In this document: positions 5,541-64,000 of the stretch, piece after piece | Layout of the letters: the number at the start of each line of letters is the position of its first letter | Position numbering within the stretch: position 1 is the first letter of the stretch | Source: Byssochlamys sp. IMV 00236 | Taxonomy: Eukaryota > Ascomycota > Eurotiomycetes > Eurotiales > Thermoascaceae | NCBI GenBank assembly: GCA_001931875.2 | Contig: MSJH02000798.1 | Span: forward strand, 108,989-172,988 | Direction: 5' to 3' | DNA length: 64,000 bases | Program-made: the position numbers and the translations under genes | Notes under the pieces: generated by a model | Database searches by the model: none | Seen by the model: the letters and a program-made list of their open reading frames with translations, nothing else | Told to the model about the DNA's origin: nothing

Positions 5541-8096
5541 GGGAATTACAGAGGGTATCTGCACCTGTCCGGAGATTAGTTTCAATCGTCATCTCTTCAA
5601 TCCATTCCTTTAATTTGTGCAGCCTCAGAATGGCTGCATTTTCTCCCTTTTATTCGAAATTGGCATCCTCGACACCATCACCAGCATCGGCCAGCGCGAT
5701 CCTCGTTGCATCAGCACTAAATTTCTTGATTGCCTTGCTCAAAGTAAGGAAATTGCCTTCCAGTGCTCATCTTGCTGCCATTTAAGAATAGATGACCATT
5801 GGCTCAAATAGCTTAAGGCCAGAACCTCTTAGGGAAGAGTGCAAGGTGGATGTATAGAAAGAAGGTAAGATGATTTAGGATAAGGTCTTTACCGGATATC
5901 TGTATATCTAATGGATACCAGTATTCAAACTCGCGTCATACTTTTTAGAATGATTCCTTGCTGATCCCGATCTCTCTAAATAGGCCGTCGGAAATAGGGA
6001 TATTAGTAAAAATGCAATCCCATGCTTTGTCGGATATTTGCTCTGGCTTGATATTGAGAAGTCCCGGTTTCTGTGTATAGCGATCGCCGTAAAAAAAGTA
6101 AGAGACAGTATAATATAACCTATAGATTGTATTATCGCTTAAGCTCTTAACAAGGAATTTAGTATCCCAGGGTAACTTAGTTCCAAGACCATAATTGTGT
6201 GCGCAAGCCCATTAGTTTAACCACCCAATATTAGCTTTAAATTAGTTTTGTACTTCCGGCGTAAATATATTAAGGCCATTTATGATATAATCAAGAACTG
6301 TCTTCTGCTACTCAAGATCGCCCTCTCTATAATTAAGGAACTATTAACCCAAGTATGCTATAATATACTTGTCCCCGCTTTAGCTAATAATCTTGCCTGC
6401 TGGATTAGTAAAAGCAAAGGCATCTCCACTTTTAATTAAGGAGTGCCGAACTTTCTCCTTTACTTCTTAGACAGACTGGCCAGTAAACTCTCCAGTAAGC
6501 ATTTTGCCTTTATAGAAGCCTTTAGAGTAAGCTAATTTCTTCGCAATATCAAGCTGAGCTGTATCCTTTGGGGAGTTGATTTTCATATCTTGAATTAATT
6601 TCTTCGCCGTGAGGTTTCTATAAGTAGGTGTCTCAATCACAGGAATAATTTTAAGTTCGGCCCATTCCTTCTCAATGCTGTAGTACTCGGGTTTCTTGAT
6701 AAGCTCTTGAATCATGGTATAGTCGTCTGGACTATCGGATGGCACACACGTGACAACTCCAGTACCTTTTGTAGCCGATACGGAGTCCATGGGGAGTATT
6801 CTGATTCCTTCGGTATGAACGGAAAGAGGGGCGTTCACTAAGGTACCAACAAATGCTGACCCAGGGAGGTCAACGACTGGCTGAAGCTCGGACTGAACTC
6901 TGGGGAAATCCCCAAAGAATGTTCCTTGAAATGCCATATCCCAAGCAGCTCGCTTTGTGCAGACATAGTACTCTGTGTCGGAGACTTTAAATATCCCATA
7001 ACGTATATTAGGACCCACGAAACAACAGACCTGGCCATACATCGTTTCCGGCCTCAAAGTCGCTGGAATGAAATAGACGCTCGCATCCTGAGGTACTGTT
7101 CCCTCAATAACTTTTGCTACCACTGGTGACCATCTCCTGACTTTCAAATACTCAACCGGACCAAGTGTTTCTCCTTCAGACCGGGAATGGTCCATGCATG
7201 GTTGACCATATTTTGGGCTATAGATTGTATATCGGTTCCCATACTGGATCTTGTTCATTTGACGCAAGCGGTTCATCTGTCAGCGAACGAATGAGTCATA
7301 AAAAGGGTTCAGATCTATTGTGACAAACTGCCTTCGCCAGTCAATCCGTGCTCCGAAATCTTTTAATTCTCTGGCACAGAGCTCCGGGAAGAACTCCAGC
7401 CAGTATTTTCCGTCCGCAAACTTGTGGATATCTTCTAGAGGTATGCCTATGGACAGCATGATTAGAAATTGATACTTTGCCTTGATTGTTTTTGCTGCAG
7501 CTTTAGATTTCTTGCCGCTGAATTTTGTCATGTCCTTTCTAGTGACATCTTGTATCGGCGCAACTGCCATCCCACTCTCTTCTGATGATTCGGTTTCCTT
7601 TTTATAGCCCTCGAAGTATTTGCCGAACCTCCTTATTTTATTTATGAGCTTGTCTGCGCAAGCTTTGATCGCCATACCGGTGCCATGGAACCCGAGAGGG
7701 AACAAGGTTCTCTTGCCGATCATGCGCTGAAAACCCACGGTGAACTCAACTTTCGAGACCGTAAAGCTGTGTCCAGCATGAAGGATCCAGTTCATGTAGG
7801 GACAGGCGAATGTGGCATAGTATTTGGGATGTTGTTCGTGAAGTTCATCGTCAGATATTGAGCCATAGGCTACCTCGTCGATGGACGGCGCATTCGATTC
7901 GAATACATGGTCTTCTTGCCATTTTGCTTGGTATTTCTTCTCAATTTTGACGAGGGTGTCACGCTTCCCTGTCTGTGACGGAGAAATGTCAGCAAGCAAA
8001 GCATAGAAAAGGTGCAAGACTACTGACATTTTGAAGCTGCAGAGTTGCGGGAGAGCCAGCGCTCGGGTCGACCTTCTCGGTCGGTGCAGACCCCAT
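5540..8096 (-). pseudogene. Degenerate second copy of cytosolic leucyl-tRNA synthetase
   Basis: The minus strand reads as a class I cytosolic leucyl-tRNA synthetase from its start. Exon 1 (8028-8096) encodes 23 residues beginning MGSAPTEK. A 55-nt intron (7973-8027, GTCAGT...TCACAG) then leads in frame into GKRDTLVKIEKKYQAKW. PYMNWILHAGHS is the HIGH region, where the family expects a Gly near the Trp, and TLRPETMYGQVCCFV marks the editing domain. At 7280-7282 a TGA replaces the Trp codon of the conserved SFVRWQM segment; after it the frame stays open to 6467. Farther on the copy is AT-rich and broken by many stops, yet [15 protein letters not shown] and LKEWIEEM are still readable near 5590-5690. 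A normal synthetase has about 1,100 residues, so this spans most of it. It cannot encode a working enzyme unless the TGA is bypassed; a functional copy must exist elsewhere. Confidence 0.87.
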
Positions 8097-35836: not shown

Positions 35837-36800
35837 TCAGACCTCATGGATATCGATGTCTCCTTCCTGCGAGGGACCGGCAACTTTCTGTAACCGCGTG
35901 GACAGCCGGCTGTTTCTACTCGAATTCGGACCGTTACGCGTATCAGGCGTGCTGGTCCCAGAGAACTCCGATTTTGAACCCGCTAATGCGACTGCTGAGT
36001 CCATATTGACGAAGTCAACGCTACGGGTTTGCGGCGGACCCCATACCTCCGATTTCGGGTAGGGAACGCCAGCGACGCCTTCGGCATTGGGCGGAGGTGC
36101 TGTGCCGTCTGCAGTTGAGGTATCTCCATGGTAGAGTCCGGGGCGCTTCGCGTCGTAACGGCGCTTGAGCCACATGCCAGCAAGGGCGATTCCCGTGAGT
36201 CCCACGGCCAGGACGATAATCATGATAACCCACTGGTAATGGGTCGAGATCCTACATAAAGAATGACCACGTTAGCGGGATCCCTATCCCAAAACGGGCG
36301 GCCGTTGACAGCTGATATAGCAGGGCACCCTGAACATACCATGACGGAGGGCTGGGATAACTCTTCACATGAGTCGCAGCGGTTGTTGTAGCAGCAGCAT
36401 TGGTGGCAGTGGTCGAGGTGGAAGTCGTGGTCGTCTGGACGTCTCCTCCCGTAGCACAGAAATTATTATACCATTGCTCCAATGTCTGGGCATCGGCGGC
36501 CGAGCAAGCAGTACAGACACTAGCGGGAGATGAGCGCAATTGCGTGAGAAGGGTGGACTGGCAGAAGCAAGAGACGTAGGTCGCCTTGTTCGTCACTGGA
36601 GCTGCTGGTGGTACACAGGAACCCTGAGCCTGCTCAAGGGTCTGGCAAGTGAGAGCACAGGCGGGGAAGGTGTCGGAGGCGGCGGAAGGCAGCAGAGTGA
36701 CACTCTGTGCAGCGGTCGAAGAGGCAAAGAGGGCTGGGACGAAGACGCAGAGCAGGGAGATGGCGTCGATCCACAGCAAGGAGGGGAGCCACGCTCCCAT
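35837..36800 (-). CDS. Cys-rich single-pass membrane protein of unknown function, 2 exons
   Basis: 291-residue predicted plasma-membrane or secretory-pathway protein. A signal peptide (to about residue 31, ending ASSTAAQS) is followed by a Cys-rich ectodomain (about 35-118) with eight or so cysteines, CALTCQTLEQAQGSC through CTACSAADAQTLEQWYNNFC. A Thr/Ala-rich, probably O-glycosylated stalk comes next. One 88-nt intron (36252-36339, GTATGT...TGTAG) then joins PPSW to ISTHYQW. The transmembrane helix VIMIIVLAVGLTGIALAGMW is followed by KRRY and a cytosolic tail of about 100 residues ending GDIDIHEV. This layout recalls fungal wall sensors and CFEM-like proteins, but the Cys spacing is not classical CFEM; I call it uncharacterised. 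The ATG at 36800 directly precedes the signal peptide. Confidence 0.75.
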
Positions 36801-41290: not shown

Positions 41291-42475
41291 GGTTGGCAAC
41301 TGTTGGTTGCCCTTCCTTGTCCTGGTTCGTATTTATGACGGATAGTTTCCTGCCAGCGAGAAAGTGACTGATAAAGGCTCGGAATGCAAATCCAGAAGAC
41401 TGATATATTACGTTGCTCCTCCTTCTGCGACCGCTAGTTTCGGAGAGATAGACTTGATAGCTCTCGATACATAAGTGCCATATCTCCACTCGCCCCCACA
41501 TGTTGGCCACAAGGCGGTAGCGGGGTTTCTTCCGCAGATCTTGGATCGGATTCCACCACGGTCCTTACCAGTTTTATGGCTTCGCTGTGAGGATTAAAAA
41601 AAAAAANNNNNNNNNNNNNNNNNNNNNNNNNNNNAAAAAAACGGGGATGACGTTTCTTTCTTTCTTTCTTTCTTTTTGTCAGGTACTAGTCTTTAACAGA
41701 GATAAAACCTAGCCGGGAACTGCTCTGGAGCTCTAACGTGACTGCCTTGACGACTGTATGATGGCAAGGATAAGAGGAATAATATGGACTACTTGGTGAA
41801 GGTATAATTGGTACCACGGAAAGACGGTAATCAGATGATGACATGACGAGAGGTGGCACCATTGTATCGTTCTGGTCATACTTGCCCACTAACTTGGCTC
41901 TTCTACTTTGGAGCTGCCGAGCAAACACCTGATAATTTATCTCTATGAAAGCCCAAGTTTTATTCATTAGTTAAGCCAGACATAATTCATTCTAGCACCT
42001 CTGTTACGGCACTCGCTTTGGACTCTAAACTGTCGGTCTCAAACTCTAAACCGATCGTCAAAATATCAATAACTGCTAGACTCTGTCACTCCTCACGTGA
42101 AGGCAGACATGCAAGGAACTTGGGTAGCCGGGCCGAGAACAAGGCTATGAGAACTAGGGAGCATTTCAATTACAGAGTAGAAGGCTCACCGCACTCTATC
42201 TATACAACAAGCTAAGAAATCCGAGCAGTGTATTACTATGAATTAAGGAAAGAAGTAAAACAATGCGACTGTATATATACGTTACATTAAGTCATTAATT
42301 TTGTAGAGTATAGCTCTCCACAGAGTAGCTATCTGCAAAACTTAAATAAGCGCCTTGGCTGGAGCCTAGGAAAAGCATTATATACGTGACTGTTTGCGAG
42401 TCTTCAATGCGCCCATTATCGATGTCGTGCAGTAATTTAGAAAATCATTGCTCATGAAATGAAATAACGCTTCCC
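41291..42475. other. Intergenic with assembly gap and TTTC microsatellite
   Basis: No gene. The gap (41607-41634) sits inside an A-homopolymer, and a (TTTC)n run follows at about 41653-41675. The remaining frames are short and featureless. Confidence 0.5.
41607..41634. other. Run of 28 N (assembly gap)
   Basis: Unknown bases flanked on both sides by A-runs, so a homopolymer probably stopped the assembly. The true gap length is not given by the N count. Confidence 0.98.
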
Positions 42476-45400
42476 TTACAGACGTCCTAGCAACTCCTCG
42501 ACGACCGGAAGCAACTGTAATATTATGTTAGCATGGTTTTCTTCGAGGGAATTCAAAGACCGGGAATGCTTACGTCAGACACGTCGTCAATGATCATGGT
42601 GGTCTCATTGACGAACTTGGGCGTCAGTAGCGTGTTGGCGTTCTTCAGGAGAGGACCAAGTCCCTTGAGGATGTCGGGAGTGACCGTGCTCGAGAGGCTT
42701 TCGACGAGTGGAGTGGCGTCGCTCAGCAACTTGGTAATTTCCTGGGCAGTCTGGTTGTTCAGGAGGCCGTTGGCATTCGTCAACAGACTATTGATCTCTT
42801 TCGTGGTCTCGGGGGTCAGCAGGTCGTTGGCATTCGTAACAAGACCATTAATATCCTTAACAGAATTAGGCGTCAGCAAGTCGTTGGCGTTATTCACCAA
42901 GCTAACGATCTTGTCTGTGCCATTAAGCAGTTGAGTCAGCTCCTTAGTGACTTGAGGAGTCAACAAGCCGTTGGCACTGCTCAATAAGCTGGTAATCTCT
43001 TTTGTAGTCTCGGGCGTCAGCAGATCGTTGGCATTCGTGACAAGACCATTGATCTCCTTAACAGAGTTAGGCGTTAGAAGGTCATTGGCATTGGTTAGGA
43101 GACTGTCGATTTCCTTGACAGAGTTAGGCGTGAGCAGGTCGTTGGCGTTGTTCACTAGGCTGACGATCTTGTCTGTACCGTTGAGCAAGCTAGTCAGATC
43201 CTTGGTTACCTGAGGAGTCAACAAGCCATTGGCGCTATCCAACAAGCTGGTAATTTCCTTAGTGGTCTGAGGAGTCAACAGATCATTGGCATTGTCCAAT
43301 AAGCTGACAATCTTGCCGGTGCCATTGAGTAACTGAGTCAGCTCCTTGGTAACCTCAGGAGTCAACAAGCCATTGGCGCTATCCAACAAGCTGGTAATCT
43401 CCTTAGTAGTCTGAGGAGTCAACAGATCATTGGCATTGTCCACTAAGCTGACGATCTTGCCAGTGCCGTTAAGTAACTGAGTCAGCTCCTTGGTGACTCC
43501 AGGAGTCAATAGACCATTGGCGCTGCCCAATAGGCTAGTAATCTCCTTCGTGGTCTGAGGAGTCAACAGATCATTGGCATTGTCCACCAAGCTGACAATC
43601 TTGCCAGTGCCATTGAGCAATTGCGTTAGTTCCTTAGTGACTTCAGGAGTCAACAAGCCATTGGCACTGGTCAATAAGCTAGTGATCTCCTTAGTGGTCT
43701 GAGGAGTCAATAGGTCGTTAGCGTTGCCCAGAAGTCCAGTGATCTCCTTGGTGGTTTGTGGCGTGAGAAGACCGTTGGCATTGTTAATAAGAGCCTCGAT
43801 CTCCTTTGTGTTCTGCGGCGTGAGCAGACCATTGGCATTGTTGATAAGAGCCTCGATCTCCTTTGTATTCTGCGGAGTGAGGAGACCGCTGGCAGCATTG
43901 ACAAGACCGATGACTTGGGGCAGGTCCGAGAGCAAAGTGCTAAGCGACTTGATATTCTTCGCAGTAAGCAGAGTGTTGGCATTGTTAAGCAAGGTAACAA
44001 TCTGCTGGGCGTTGTTCTTGGTAAGCAGGAAGTTTGCGTTATCAAGTAGATCCTCGATCTCCTTGGTGTTCTGCGCGGTAAGAAGACCATTTGCATTGTT
44101 GATAAGGGTGACGATCTTGGGCACATCTCCCAGCAAGTTACTAAGAGCATTGGTGTTTCTCGTAGTGAGAAGACCATTGGCATTGTTGATAAGATTCTCG
44201 ATATCCTTAGTATTCTGCGGCGTAAGTAGACCATTGGCGTTTTGGAGCAGCTCCTCGATCTCCTTGGTGTTCTGGGCGGATAACAGGCCGTTGGCGTTGT
44301 CGATGAGCGTAACAATCTTGGGCACGTCCTGTAATAGAATCTCGAGTTCTTTGGTATTCTGAGCAGTGAGGAGGCCGTTGGCATTGTTAACAAGGTCGAC
44401 AATCTTAGACGTGCTCTGGAGCAGAGTGCTGAGCTCGTTGGTGTTTTGCTTGGTGAGCAGGGCGTTGGCGTTGTTAAGCAGGTTCTCGATCTCCTGGGTG
44501 TTCTGTGCGGTGAGCAGACCGTTGGCATTGTTAATAAGGGTAACGATCTTGGGCACGTCCTGCAGCAGAGTCTCGAGTTCCTTGGTATTCGAGTCAGACA
44601 GAAGGCCATTGGCGTTGTTGACAAGGTCAATGATCTTAGGAGTGCTTTGAAGCAAGGTGCTGAGCTCATCGGTGTTCTGCTTGTCAAGCAGCGTGTTGGC
44701 GTTGTTGATGAGCGTGACGATCTGTGGAACGTCTTGCAGGAGTTTGACGATCTGTGCAGTGTTCTGATCGCTGAGGAGCTGGTTGGCGTTCTTGACCAGA
44801 TCGAGGATATTGGGCACGTCTTGCAGGAGCTTGACGATCTCCGCGGTGTTTTGGTCACTAAGCAGCTGGTTGGCGTTGTCAATAAGGGTGTTGACCTTGT
44901 TGGCAAAATCCTTGGTGAGCAGCCCACCAGCAACGTCGATAATACCGTTGAGGACAGGGATGTGCGCATCAGTCAGCACCTGCACAACGCGAGTGAAGAA
45001 GTGGACAAAGTCCTCCAAGAAATTAGGGGTGAGCACGGCTTCAATACTACCGAGGTAGCCCTTGAGGGCACTACCAAGGCTGTCAGCGATGGCATTGCCG
45101 ATCGCGTTTCCAAGATTGTTGCCATTGCTGCCGCTCAGAAGGCTGGCCAGGTCGATGCCGCCGGTACTCGACGAAGCAGTCGAAGTGGGTGAGCCGGTTT
45201 CCGCGGGAGACGAAGCAGCAGAGGCCGCACTGGAGGTGATATCAGGGAGGATGCCGGAGAGGAGCCCGCCCTTGGAGTTAGAGTCCGCGCTCGCGCCGGC
45301 GGCGGAAGACGCAGAAATGGCCGGGCTGGCGGCGGGCAAACTGTTGGCGGAAGCTTGGCTGGCAGCGGCAGCGGCAGCGGGAACCGGACTAGCAGCGGGC

Positions 45401-45720
45401 GACGCAGCAGCAGCAGGACTGGAGGAGGTTTCTGGTGCTCCTGCTGCGGAGGAGGCAGACGACTGGCCAGCGCTTATAACGGAACTGAGTGGATTGTTGT
45501 CGTTATTATCGTTATTGTCGTTGTTGATGTTATGGTTATTGTTGCTGGTGTCGGCCGCAGCAGCGGGCGAGCCAGCCGGCGCCTGCTGCTCGGCGGAAGA
45601 CGCCCGGACAGCGGGCGCTGAACCAGCCACCGCAGCAGAGCTGGGCGTGCCGGCCGGACTAGCCAGGACGCCCGCGCCGTGCAACAGCAGGACGGGGAGG
45701 AGAGTGGTGGAGGCACGCAT
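42476..45720 (-). CDS. Secreted protein of about 32 tandem 19-residue helical repeats, 2 exons
   Basis: 1,061 residues; I do not recognise a named family. A signal peptide (about 1-20, MRASTTLLPVLLLHGAGVLA) is followed by about 170 residues of Ala/Ser/Pro low complexity with an Asn/Asp run, probably O-glycosylated. A short unique domain (GIDLASLLSGSNGNN to VLNGIIDVAGG) comes next. The rest is tandem modules of 19 residues with consensus xNANxLLTPQxTKEIxxLL, about 32 copies. Fourteen of these are followed by a 10-residue module (QDVPKIVTLI early, NGTGKIVSLV late). Both modules are amphipathic, so a helical solenoid is likely. In the middle the 19+19+10 unit (48 residues, 144 bp) repeats almost identically, which indicates recent expansion. 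An intron (42515-42573, GTAAGC...TTACAG) adds the C-terminal LLPVVEELLGRL. No membrane segment or GPI signal was seen. A wall-associated or surface role is inferred only. Confidence 0.85.
43240..43690 (-). repeat. 144-bp tandem repeat block inside the repeat protein gene
   Basis: Three near-identical 144-bp units (48 codons: two 19-residue modules plus one 10-residue module). For example, the string CTGGTAAT.TCC recurs about 144 bp apart near 43252, 43396 and 43540. Differences between units are few and mostly silent. The frame is kept, so copy number can change without breaking the protein. Confidence 0.8.
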
Positions 45721-59740: not shown

Positions 59741-60987
59741 TGTTATCTTGCAAGTATTGGAGTTAGTGATAGTTATTATGTAAGGGAAGATATGGTTAGT
59801 GATAAAGCCTCTGTAAGAAGTGCCGATATGACCTAGCTGAGCTGGATGGAGAAAGAAGCATTATATCTGTTCTATATGTCTAGCAAGTGTATCTATAGCC
59901 CTAAAGCCGGACGGTCCGTGCTGTACTGCCAAGTATCAGTTCTATTATGTCATATTGCTGTTTTTATTTGCTTTACGCTTTAATGGACGCAAAAGGTTCT
60001 AAATCACGAGCGTATCTAGGTGGGCGGGATCGGGTCTGTACGCAACTTTCGCAGATCCTGCGCCGAGGGCTGGAGTGCAGGCGGTATTAGAACTGAAGGT
60101 TGGCGTTCGAAGATTACATGACGAGACGAAGAAAATAAAAGAAAAGAAAGATCTTAAAATTCGATTTTCAGGGCTCTGGATCAGTGTAATCCGGTTCTTG
60201 TGACCGAATCCTGGAAAGAGATAACCGTGCCAGTGCTTAAACCTTGACCGGGATAGCAGATAGTGATATGTTCAACAAGCATTCCTGTATGAGCTCCATG
60301 GCAATCATCCCCTGATGCGCCAGATATTTTACGCCTATTGCTTTCTTGGAATTCGAGTGCAAGTGCTGGGATACCGGCAAAACCGGCAAAACTAGGAAGC
60401 CAGAAATTGTGAAGTTTTTTAAACTAGATAGATAATCTCATAAAATAGTATATGATCAGCAGAATGATTCTTGAATGAGTATTATTACAGAGGAACCTAT
60501 TCTATCTATTAGCCCTTGTAGACACGCTATTACGCATCTACCGTTTAAGTTAGTATACTATAGATTATTGAGAGTAAGAAGGTACAGTTTAATAAATTAA
60601 TCTAGAGAAAAGAGAAGGATATAGACTTCCTCCTAATATCGTTCCAATTATAACTTTAGGTATTTTTATTGTTTAACAGTCCTCCTAAGTCTATAAGATT
60701 CTGTAGGGCTAGTGCAAAGCCGGCCAAATCTGCAGAACATTAATCGCAATGTAGATCCCCATATAGACGAAGAAGCCTACTTCGGCTGGTGTTCCCGCGT
60801 GTTAGAGTAGCAGGGCGTGGCGATATTAATGCCGGTAGAGAAGTATCTGTAAGCTTATTATGCGCGGACAGAGCTAAGAGTAGTAGAGTTGGATAGGATA
60901 ACGCAAGTGCGAAGGACGTTAGTTTCTCTTTATTTAGGCGGAGATACTTAATAATAGCATATAGAATAGCATATAAACAGCATTACC
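59741..60987. other. Transition into AT-rich DNA, no gene
   Basis: The first 600 bp are ordinary non-coding DNA. From about 60.4 kb the AT content rises sharply, with a less degraded patch at about 60700-60930. No gene was seen. Confidence 0.45.
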
Positions 60988-61719
60988 TGTTAAGGTACAG
61001 GCTTAGGAAGTAGGTTAGAACAAATAGAATAAGGTAGTTAATACTAGGACTAGCTACAGGATCTCTATCTAGCTAGTTCAGACTAGAACAGGCTATTGCA
61101 GGCAGGCTTAATAAATAAAATATAATTTAAAAAGCTTAAATTCAGATTAAGCTATATGCTAAAAATATCTTTATAAAATTATATAATTTCTTATATAAGT
61201 ATTAGCTAGTAAATCTCTTTAAATAATTTATTTCTTATATTAATATTATAATAATATTTCTCTTCTTAAAGTTAAGCTTTATTAAAACTATTTCTTAGCT
61301 TTAGCTTATTTAAATAATAATATTAAAAGTTAATAATAATCTCTTAAATATATTATAAGTAATATATAGATTTTTTATTAAATTATTATAATCTATTTAT
61401 TTAATAATATATTATAATTTATTATAGTACTAGTATAGAGAATAAGATAATTAACCCGCTGGCTAATACTTATCTAATTTAGAAGAGTAAGGATTATACT
61501 TTTTTAAATTATATAAGAAGTTATATAACCTTATAAAGATATCTTTAGTATATAGCTTAATTTAAATTTAAGCTCCTTAAGCTATATCTTATTTATTAAG
61601 CCTGCTTATAATAGCCTATTTTAATTTAAATTAGCTAGATAGAGATTTTATAGCTAATCTTAATATTAACTATCTTATTCTATTTATTCTAACCTATTCC
61701 CTAAGCCTATATCTTAATA
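60988..61719. repeat. RIP-altered inverted repeat with about 220-bp arms
   Basis: The arm 60988-61205 reappears as its reverse complement at about 61505-61719. Matching blocks include GGCTTAATAAATAA, AGCTAGATAGAGAT-type and TTCTATTTxTTCTAACCTA segments. The differences are almost all C-to-T or G-to-A; the right arm is more degraded. The outer ends read TG... and ...TA (an altered CA), as in LTR ends. This is either a foldback/MITE-like element of about 730 bp or two LTR pieces in opposite orientation. Confidence 0.7.
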
Positions 61720-61899
61720 CTATATAACTTCTATTTAAAAGTTAATACTATTAATAATACTTATTCTAATTCCCTTATTTTTACTAACTATTTTAAAAGA
61801 GTTTATTAAGCATATTACTACTAGCTATAGGCTAAAATAATATAATTACTATTACCTAATATATAAATATATTATTAGGGCTAAATTATCTATAAATAA

Positions 61900-64000
61900 A
61901 GCTAGCTAATATATTAAATAAACTAAAGTAAAATTCTAAAAACTTTAGCAAGAATTTGCAGCTATATAATAAAGGCTTAAATAAAAAAATATTAACCTTA
62001 AGACTGTTTAATAATATTAAGAGATATAGTTTAATAAAAAGGAATAATAATATATTTAGATTATTCTTAAGAGGGATTAAGCTTACTATATAATTACCCT
62101 TACTATAAATATACTTATATTTATATTTAAGCTTAAGCCTAATATTAAGAGACTTATAGCTATTTTAGTAAAAGTATTTAAAATATCTATTATTATACTT
62201 TTTTTTATTCTTAAATTTTTAAAAAAACTCCTTAATCTAAATAAGTTTAAAGGTAACTAAAAAGACCTTTAGTATTTTATAGCCTAGATTTAAAAAAAAT
62301 AATAATTAATTAAGATTAATTTCTAACTCCTTAGAGCTATATAACCTATATAACTAATTACTTAAAAAATATATCCTATACTTAAATATTACTATATATT
62401 AAAAATAGGACTTATATTTTTAGCAACTACTAAGAGATTTTAAATATCTTAAAGTATATATTTAGTAATCTTAATTATATAAATAATATATATAATAAAC
62501 TATTTAACCTCTATTAGATTAATAAAAAATTTAAAATCTTTTTTATTAAATTCTAGTACTTAATATTAAAAAGAGAAATATTTAAAAGAATATTATTTAC
62601 TTTACTTAAGCAAGTTATTAGTTAAGAACTTTAAAGAATATTATTATATAGTTAGCCCCTAAATTATAAATATTACTAATTTACTAAATTCTTATAAGAT
62701 TTTAAGAATTATTATTGCTAATATACTATAAACTAACTTTTTATTATAAAGATTTATATTGCTATTTTAAAACCTATTTAATATACTTAATTCTCTTTAT
62801 CTATTTTAAGTCTTACTCTAGCTATAAAATATAATAATTAGCCCTAGAAAAGCCCTATATAGAAGAGTAAACTAGCCTTAATATAGCTATATAATTTAAT
62901 AAATTTAAATACTTTTAAATACCTAGATAGGAGAAAGTATAACTTATTATATTATAAAACTAGCGCCTATTTCTATTATAGCTCCCTAAAATATTATATT
63001 AAAAATTGCTTATACTTAAATAATTATTAGAAAATTTAGACTATAGCTATATATAAACTCTATCTCTAAACTCCCTAGATAATCTAGTTCTTAGACTTAT
63101 ATAATTTATTCCTTAGCTAGTCTTTAGTAAAAAGAGTAAGCCTAGAATAAATTATAGCTAAACTTAAGAACTATATATTATTTAAATCTTTGCTACCGCT
63201 ATTTATAGAATTAACCTTAAGGAATACTTATAATAATTAAAATTAATAATATTGCCTATAATATTAAAAAGGAAAAAAAAAGATTTACTTACTAATTTAT
63301 GCCTTATTTAATACTAAAGCTAAAAAATAAGAATTTATAAACTAAAGATAGGCTAAAAACTAGGAATTAGAGCTTATTCCCTTAAAAAGCCTAATTATTC
63401 TGCATATATTTAATAGAAGAGAACTAGAAGATAAAAAGATTATATATTATATTTAAATAGATATAAGAATTAAGAACTATTTTAAAAAAGATACTAAATT
63501 CTATATTATTTAATTAGCGTATTACCTTATTATCTTAAGACTCCCCTAATTAAAGTACTATAACCTATACTTATAATTTACTGCTTATAATATTACTTTT
63601 AATAATAATTATTATTAAAAAAATTATAATATATTCTTAAAGCTAATTAAAATATTTGCCCTATATAATATTTCTCTAAAAACTTTATTCTAATACTTAC
63701 CTCTAAGATCTAAAAGATTAGAAAAGAAAAATATAGCCTTTATTTCCCTAGCTGCCTATTTTACCTATACTTAAAAAAATATTTAAATATTTATAATTAT
63801 CTTAGAGGACCTAAATACTGCTTTAAAGATTAAATAAGTTTAAGAAAAAGACCTTATCTACTTATTGCCTAAAAAGTTTAAGAATTATATTAATATCTTT
63901 TCCCCTAAAAAGGCTAAGCACCTATTATTATATTATTCTTATAATTATAATATTAAGCTATTAGAGAAAAAATTACTTTCCTTTAAACCTCTATATATTA
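61900..64000 (+). mobile_element. RIP-degraded Ty3/gypsy LTR retrotransposon (gag-pol relic, runs off the window)
   Basis: Extremely AT-rich sequence with hardly any CA or TG dinucleotides left. On the plus strand a gag-like stretch can be traced from about 62240 (KF..N..KDLQYFIAQI). A zinc-knuckle-like stretch near 62950-63020 has Cys/His positions mostly changed to Tyr, as C-to-T/G-to-A would do, and ends IKNCLYL. From about 63862 LPKKFKNYINIFSPKKAK leads to KLLEKKLLSF-PLY, the start of the gypsy reverse transcriptase region. Frames are destroyed by many TAA/TAG codons. The RT core, RNase H and integrase would lie beyond the window end. No intact LTR was identified. Confidence 0.78.

Follow-up and report, generated by a model that had tools for sequence, protein, structure and literature searches.

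A likely secreted helical-repeat protein and its apparently undescribed ascomycete family

The window, by which we mean the whole stretch of 64,000 nucleotides analysed here, holds on its minus strand (45720..42476) a gene for a protein that consists largely of short helical modules. The gene raises three questions: to which family, if any, its product belongs, whether its array of similar repeats is a recent expansion or an old structure, and what such a protein may do outside the cell. An initial annotation had suggested a secreted surface or wall protein that matched no named family and had an expanding array; the data point to a different history of the repeats and, tentatively, to the role of an extracellular spacer.

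Gene structure and anatomy of the protein

An uninterrupted open reading frame on the minus strand starts with an ATG at 45720 and reaches its stop at 42553; to judge from the structure of a paralogous gene of this genome, the window gene probably ends beyond this stop. In both genes, the codons for ...DDVSD precede a GT...AG intron and a short last exon (Table 1), the window intron being predicted from the DNA and from the comparison with the paralog. The spliced product has 1061 amino acids, and the end coordinate given at the outset, 42476, is the stop of the spliced gene. Two relatives, P0001 and P0003, carry in-frame inserts of 16 and 20 residues at the intron position, each with V as the first and Q as the last residue. 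To judge from these protein sequences (the introns of the window gene and the paralog were read from DNA), the inserts seem to be the same intron left in, and both proteins were apparently translated with it. Retention of the intron in the window gene (42553..42573, minus strand) would give a protein that ends in VSIPGL and has lost the final helix; the paralog with a retained intron would also have a different tail. Downstream of the gene, a run of N at 41607..41634 is an assembly gap or a masked stretch.

Table 1. Features of the helical-repeat gene and its product (positions in the window; residues of the spliced product)
Feature	Position	Strand	Basis
Exon 1	45720..42574	-	Gene prediction from DNA
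Likely signal peptide, residues 1-20, cut likely after VLA	45661..45720	-	By eye; hydrophobic core by hydropathy; start aligns with that of the paralog
Ser/Thr/Ala/Pro-rich low-complexity stretch, residues 21-204	45109..45660	-	Composition
Head before the array, ~60 residues (205-263)	44932..45108	-	Alignment to relatives
Array of 19- and 29-residue modules, residues 264-982	42775..44931	-	Module spacing, autocorrelation, profile versus shuffles
Four 48-residue (19+29) units, residues 667-858	43147..43722	-	TRF; pS/pN
C-terminal tail, exon 1 part, residues 983-1049, with 45-residue module and NET sequon	42574..42774	-	Alignment to relatives; sequon position
Predicted intron, 59 bp (GTAAGC...ACAG)	42573..42515	-	GT...AG; 55-bp GT...AG intron of the paralog at the same protein position
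Last exon, 12 residues LLPVVEELLGRL plus stop	42514..42476	-	Paralog ends LLPTVVKLLGSL; P0001 ends LLPIAMKLLDSL

Secretion, as proposed by the initial annotation, is supported by the look and the hydropathy of the N-terminus, and the low-complexity region noted there is indeed rich in Ser, Thr and Ala: residues 21-200 contain 29% S+T, 27% A and 9% P, with 10% large hydrophobics. Similar stretches with hand-chosen bounds in the paralog and in P0001-P0005 contain 26-39% S+T. The placement at the surface or in the wall fared less well, since there is no anchor behind it. By hydropathy alone, the C-terminus is not of the hydrophobic GPI type (the last 15 residues average 0.92), the highest 19-residue average after the signal peptide is 1.31 across seven proteins (P0005 without its C-terminus), and the window protein has no wall-binding domain. 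In P0002 and P0004, the C-terminus itself is the most hydrophobic stretch (1.23 and 1.22). A sequence scan found no cysteine in the window protein or the paralog.

A likely secreted protein with many near-identical repeats could be a precursor that is processed by Kex2 and releases one peptide per repeat. Putative precursors of this kind (KEPs), which are secreted and repetitive as well, are reported from nearly all fungi (PMC6339444). However, the dibasic sites that lie between the repeats of KEPs are absent here: neither the window protein nor the paralog contains a single dibasic pair, and the relatives have a few KK, KR or RK pairs. We regard processing by Kex2 as extremely improbable.

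The array of about 32 modules described at first was borne out in its essentials. The module split gave 33 module starts between residues 264 and 1028, and 31 of the 32 spacings measure 19 or 29 residues (18 of 19, 13 of 29 and one of 45). A typical module reads A-N-x-L-L-T-P-x-x-T-K-E-I-x-x-L-L-x-x, with the proline mostly missing from early modules. In the long modules, an insert of ten residues reads QDVPKIVTLI in the early part of the array and NGTGKIVSLV in the late part, as first described. Self-match of residues peaks at lags 48, 19 and 67 (0.41, 0.37 and 0.36; maximum of 300 shuffles, 0.144), and lag 38 (0.205) stays below these and below lag 29. Module identity is equal one and two steps apart (0.64), so that no period of two is seen at the module level in the window protein. 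A 19-position module profile matched 7/7 family proteins and 0/35 shuffled sequences; it was built from the window protein and the paralog, both of which match by construction, and it fits P0002-P0004 poorly (2, 6 and 3 matches).

The modules are amphipathic: their mean hydrophobic moment over 19 residues was matched by 12/1000 column permutations in the window protein and by 5/1000 in the paralog. Values for amphipathicity and module lags of P0001 were excluded because the module pattern gave just one spacing of 19 there.

Relatives and comparison with known families

The genome (47.4 Mb in 840 contigs) encodes one paralog of 715 amino acids (G000:C481, exon 1 at 191380-193488). In the protein database, the window protein as the query gave 0 matches among 7989 scored candidates, despite existing relatives; the paralog gave four among 7997 (P0001-P0004), and a six-sequence alignment gave five among 7993, one of them new (P0005). 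The relatives include N7492_001098 of Penicillium capsulatum (P0001), BDW47DRAFT_131618 of Aspergillus candidus, BDW42DRAFT_193973 of A. taichungensis and the partial P0005 from Elasticomyces. The last, from the Dothideomycetes, lies on a contig of 1482 bases and could be a contaminant. The named relatives are annotated solely as hypothetical or uncharacterized, and a literature search that included their locus tags found no work on this protein family among the papers listed. A tblastn search against plasmids gave no match, and of 17 pattern matches of alignment A2 in viral contigs, 0 were confirmed.

The relationship extends to both ends of the array. With 200 shuffles for each pair, heads align in 15/15 pairs of six proteins (window protein, paralog, P0001-P0003 and P0005; z 4.9-32.7) and tails in 10/10 pairs of five proteins (window protein, paralog, P0001, P0002 and P0004; z 6.9-42.5), whereby the aligned stretches are not free of repeats, as they contain some modules (in the head, the first one). 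The head of the window protein (residues 205-290) gave z values of 11.1, 9.0, 4.9, 5.0 and 7.2 with the paralog, P0001, P0002, P0003 and P0005, and its tail gave 16.8, 12.0, 8.0 and 8.2 with the paralog, P0001, P0002 and P0004. Furthermore, the window protein and the paralog have an NxT sequon equally far from the C-terminus. Its position is the same in 6/6 proteins with a C-terminus if one disregards the residues of the retained intron in P0001 and P0003 and the two or three residues that trail in P0004 and P0002.

The relatives from Penicillium and Aspergillus share with the window protein a signal-peptide-like start, a Ser/Thr-rich stretch, a head or tail that can be aligned, self-match at lags of 19 and 38 and the sequon near the C-terminus. 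They differ from it in being shorter (named relatives, 590-677 amino acids; the whole range runs from 590 in P0001 to 1061 in the window protein) and in their strongest period, which is 38 in P. capsulatum P0001 (0.43), as in the paralog (0.48), and 52 in P0002-P0004, compared to 48 in the window protein. In the partial P0005, lag 19 (0.39) exceeds lag 38 (0.36). The 29-residue modules, of which the window protein has 13, are missing from the module split of the paralog. Apparently, the gene belongs to an unnamed and undescribed ascomycete family of secreted proteins, and its named relatives suggest a source near the Eurotiales among the ascomycetes.

Could the protein instead have a known repeat fold in a diverged form, either a leucine-rich repeat with a 29-residue period or an ARM repeat? 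Several scores seem to favor this. The full protein exceeded the Pfam cut-offs of ARM_CPL3 (PF25505; 43.2 bits, cut-off 26) and YfdX (32.0 bits, cut-off 26.6), residues 283-580 exceeded those of YfdX (32.9 bits, E 8e-8) and GhoS (21.6 bits, cut-off 21), and a leucine-rich repeat chain in the PDB, 3goz, was matched with E values of 5.7e-6 (whole protein) and 6.8e-8 (residues 283-580). The match of residues 283-580 is better than those of the two permuted controls compared, out of five made, one of which matched another chain with an E of 0.023 and the other nothing. However, the matched families are unrelated to one another. ARM_CPL3 was not listed for residues 283-580, although its match lies inside (E<=0.01), and ARM_CPL3, YfdX and GhoS were all unlisted for the paralog (E<=1) and for P0001-P0004 (E<=0.1). 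One of the five column-permuted controls also beat a curated Pfam cut-off (PF10924, E 6.1e-6), more weakly than the native YfdX match. The leucine-rich repeat motif, LxxLxLxxN, occurs in 0/13 long modules, and 18/32 spacings measure just 19 residues. A known repeat fold is, in our view, very unlikely. Filing the protein under LRR, ARM, YfdX or GhoS was rejected, as these matches contradict one another and fail in follow-up tests.

NCBIfam gave nothing near its cut-offs, the paralog found nothing better than an E of 0.23 in the PDB, and P0002 and P0003 scored above the cut-off of the short DUF7887 model. The A2 profile had four weak matches in the PDB (sc-apCC-6-LLIA, dAIT17, dAID23.4S and "Three helix bundle"; best E 0.0011), which we take as a sign of helical composition alone. 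The HsbA model of Pfam (PF12296) is absent from the families reported at E<=10 for the window protein and at E<=1 for the paralog, in searches in which the HMMER filters drop most weak matches. No Pfam or PDB match to a named family survived testing, in agreement with the initial annotation, which could match the protein to none.

AlphaFold2, run on seven-sequence alignments, gave a mean pLDDT of 37.4 and a pTM of 0.23 for residues 205-1049 of the window protein, and 34.4 and 0.19 for the paralog. Both models contain short helices alone; in that of the paralog, helices of roughly 12-17 residues recur, with low confidence, at a spacing of ~19 residues over most of the length. Helices as described in the initial annotation are predicted with low confidence, and at a mean pLDDT of 34-37, nothing beyond them, such as stacked pairs or a rod, can be taken from the models.

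Low tertiary confidence is also what loosely tied helices would give, as in a surface-active protein or one that binds lipids or hydrophobic compounds, in which each proline-capped amphipathic helix would attach to a hydrophobic surface. Amphipathic helices bind hydrophobic surfaces in apolipoproteins, and many modules here have TP at the start of the helix, recurring at ~19 residues. The protein would then work like HsbA without belonging to the HsbA family. HsbA of A. oryzae is reported to attach to the surface of the polyester PBSA with Ca2+ and to recruit the enzyme CutL1, HsbA and HsbA-like proteins are secreted and, like the window protein, have no hydrophobin cysteine pattern, and HsbA is a protein of 14.4 kDa (PMC9394342). 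However, no Pfam row for HsbA was obtained here, and the hydrophobic face looks narrow, with a mean helix hydrophobicity of 0.055 in the window protein and 0.184 in the paralog. We consider this main rival possible but not probable.

Age of the repeat units

The near identity of the central units had been taken as evidence that the array is expanding. TRF placed a repeat with a period of 144, 4.0 copies and 86% matches at 43135..43710. In protein sequence, the four 48-residue units are indeed nearly identical (0.875-0.958 in 6/6 pairs), but this does not apply to their DNA (0.785-0.875, or 79-88%). In all six pairs, pS is 0.31-0.66, compared to a pN of 0.03-0.08, and Fisher tests with rounded counts for four of the pairs gave p values from 4e-13 to 1e-3. 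No exact direct repeat in exon 1 is longer than 42 bp, and even the youngest-looking pair of units, 763/811, has a pS of 0.31. Fresh duplication or gene conversion would leave the synonymous sites alike too, and therefore, the similarity is best explained by selection at the protein level. The central units appear to be old duplicates that selection at the protein level has kept similar, and an expanding array is not supported.

The synonymous sites of the central units are not saturated, because 171 of 263 codons are identical, with 104 expected for independent draws. Between modules eight or more apart, codon identity is 0.380, compared to an expected 0.369, and saturation is nearly reached. 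The paralog has two pairs of 57-residue units with the same pattern (314/371: protein 0.89, pS 0.59, pN 0.05; 295/352: protein 0.91, pS 0.44, pN 0.04) and three other pairs that are more diverged at both kinds of sites (pN 0.18-0.31).

These values bear on the idea of a fast-varying adhesin or another surface protein facing a host or competitors, whose repeats would grow and shrink between strains. In A. fumigatus, surface-protein genes with hypervariable repeats in exons are reported, such as those of the CspA and MP-2 type, the arrays of which vary between strains (PMC5049851). Tandem repeats in an exon are shared with the window gene, its relatives differ in length, which indicates that the number of repeats changes over evolutionary time, and units 763/811, with a pS of 0.31 and an exact run of 42 bp, are closer to each other than the other pairs. 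However, in the one genome that was read, the units of the window gene combine high synonymous with low protein divergence, two pairs in the paralog do the same, and no anchor is recognisable. A fast-varying adhesin is now less likely than before, and we regard it as unlikely.

Selection against identical DNA, for example as an escape from RIP, could be another source of the raised pS. The substitutions between units comprise 86 transitions and 12 transversions overall, and 32 and 12 at fourfold sites; A-ending codons are a minority. These base changes bear no clear RIP signature and make it less likely that the synonymous differences arose through RIP.

A possible extracellular rod

Our best reading of the protein, which we hold with a confidence slightly short of even, is a rod or spacer outside the cell that consists of helical hairpins and has no evident anchor; we infer helix pairing, rod shape, location and spacer role alike. 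Once the signal peptide is cleaved off, the chain would begin with a flexible stretch rich in Ser and Thr, which is probably O-glycosylated, and continue with the head, many short amphipathic helices in a row and the tail with its conserved N-glycosylation sequon. The lag of 38 in the paralog and P. capsulatum looks as if helices pair into two-helix hairpins. To judge from the alignment, a 29-residue module could be a 38-residue pair shortened by nine residues. In the window protein, where 48-residue (19+29) units predominate, the second helix may have lost nine residues. Outside the cell, the rod would most likely serve the wall or matrix as a spacer or coat component that is held non-covalently, and its length would be set by the number of modules.

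In favor of this reading, we count the gene model and intron shared with the paralog, the paralog itself and the relatives, the alignment of heads and tails, lag 38 in the paralog and P0001, the helices predicted for the paralog, amphipathicity, the lack of cysteines, dibasic sites and strongly hydrophobic stretches, the sequon and the constraint on the units. Against it stand the low fold confidence, the weak lag 38 and the equal module identity at one and two steps in the window protein, the excess of lag 19 over lag 38 in P0005, the position of the most hydrophobic stretch at the C-terminus of P0002 and P0004, and the lack of a wall-binding domain. A bolder version is a helical rod new to the PDB, with TP-capped hairpins of 19+19 residues that changed in one lineage to 19+29 and gave a longer, length-tunable spacer; we consider it doubtful.

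In any case, an apparently undescribed secreted repeat family of moulds can now be searched for and tested by its head, tail, module and intron, and the case illustrates how synonymous divergence tells an old array under selection apart from one in recent expansion. If the rod exists, an extracellular protein would be as long as its number of modules dictates, a relation that can be measured directly.

Three further features of the window were seen. At 36252..36800 (minus strand), a cysteine-containing protein of 182 residues with a signal-peptide-like start and a hydrophobic end looks CFEM-like by eye, with no Pfam match at E<=1. At 8029..6467 (minus strand) lies a copy of a tRNA synthetase gene, which we take to be leucyl, that looks decayed, as a TGA near 7280 interrupts its reading frame. 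The upstream piece matches a class I synthetase in Pfam, the downstream piece nothing at E<=0.001. In 60001..64000, G+C falls to 30% and then to 19%, and TpA/ApT is 1.36, compared to 0.63-0.91 in the other 4-kb stretches, a pattern as in the RIP-affected AT-rich blocks of fungal genomes.
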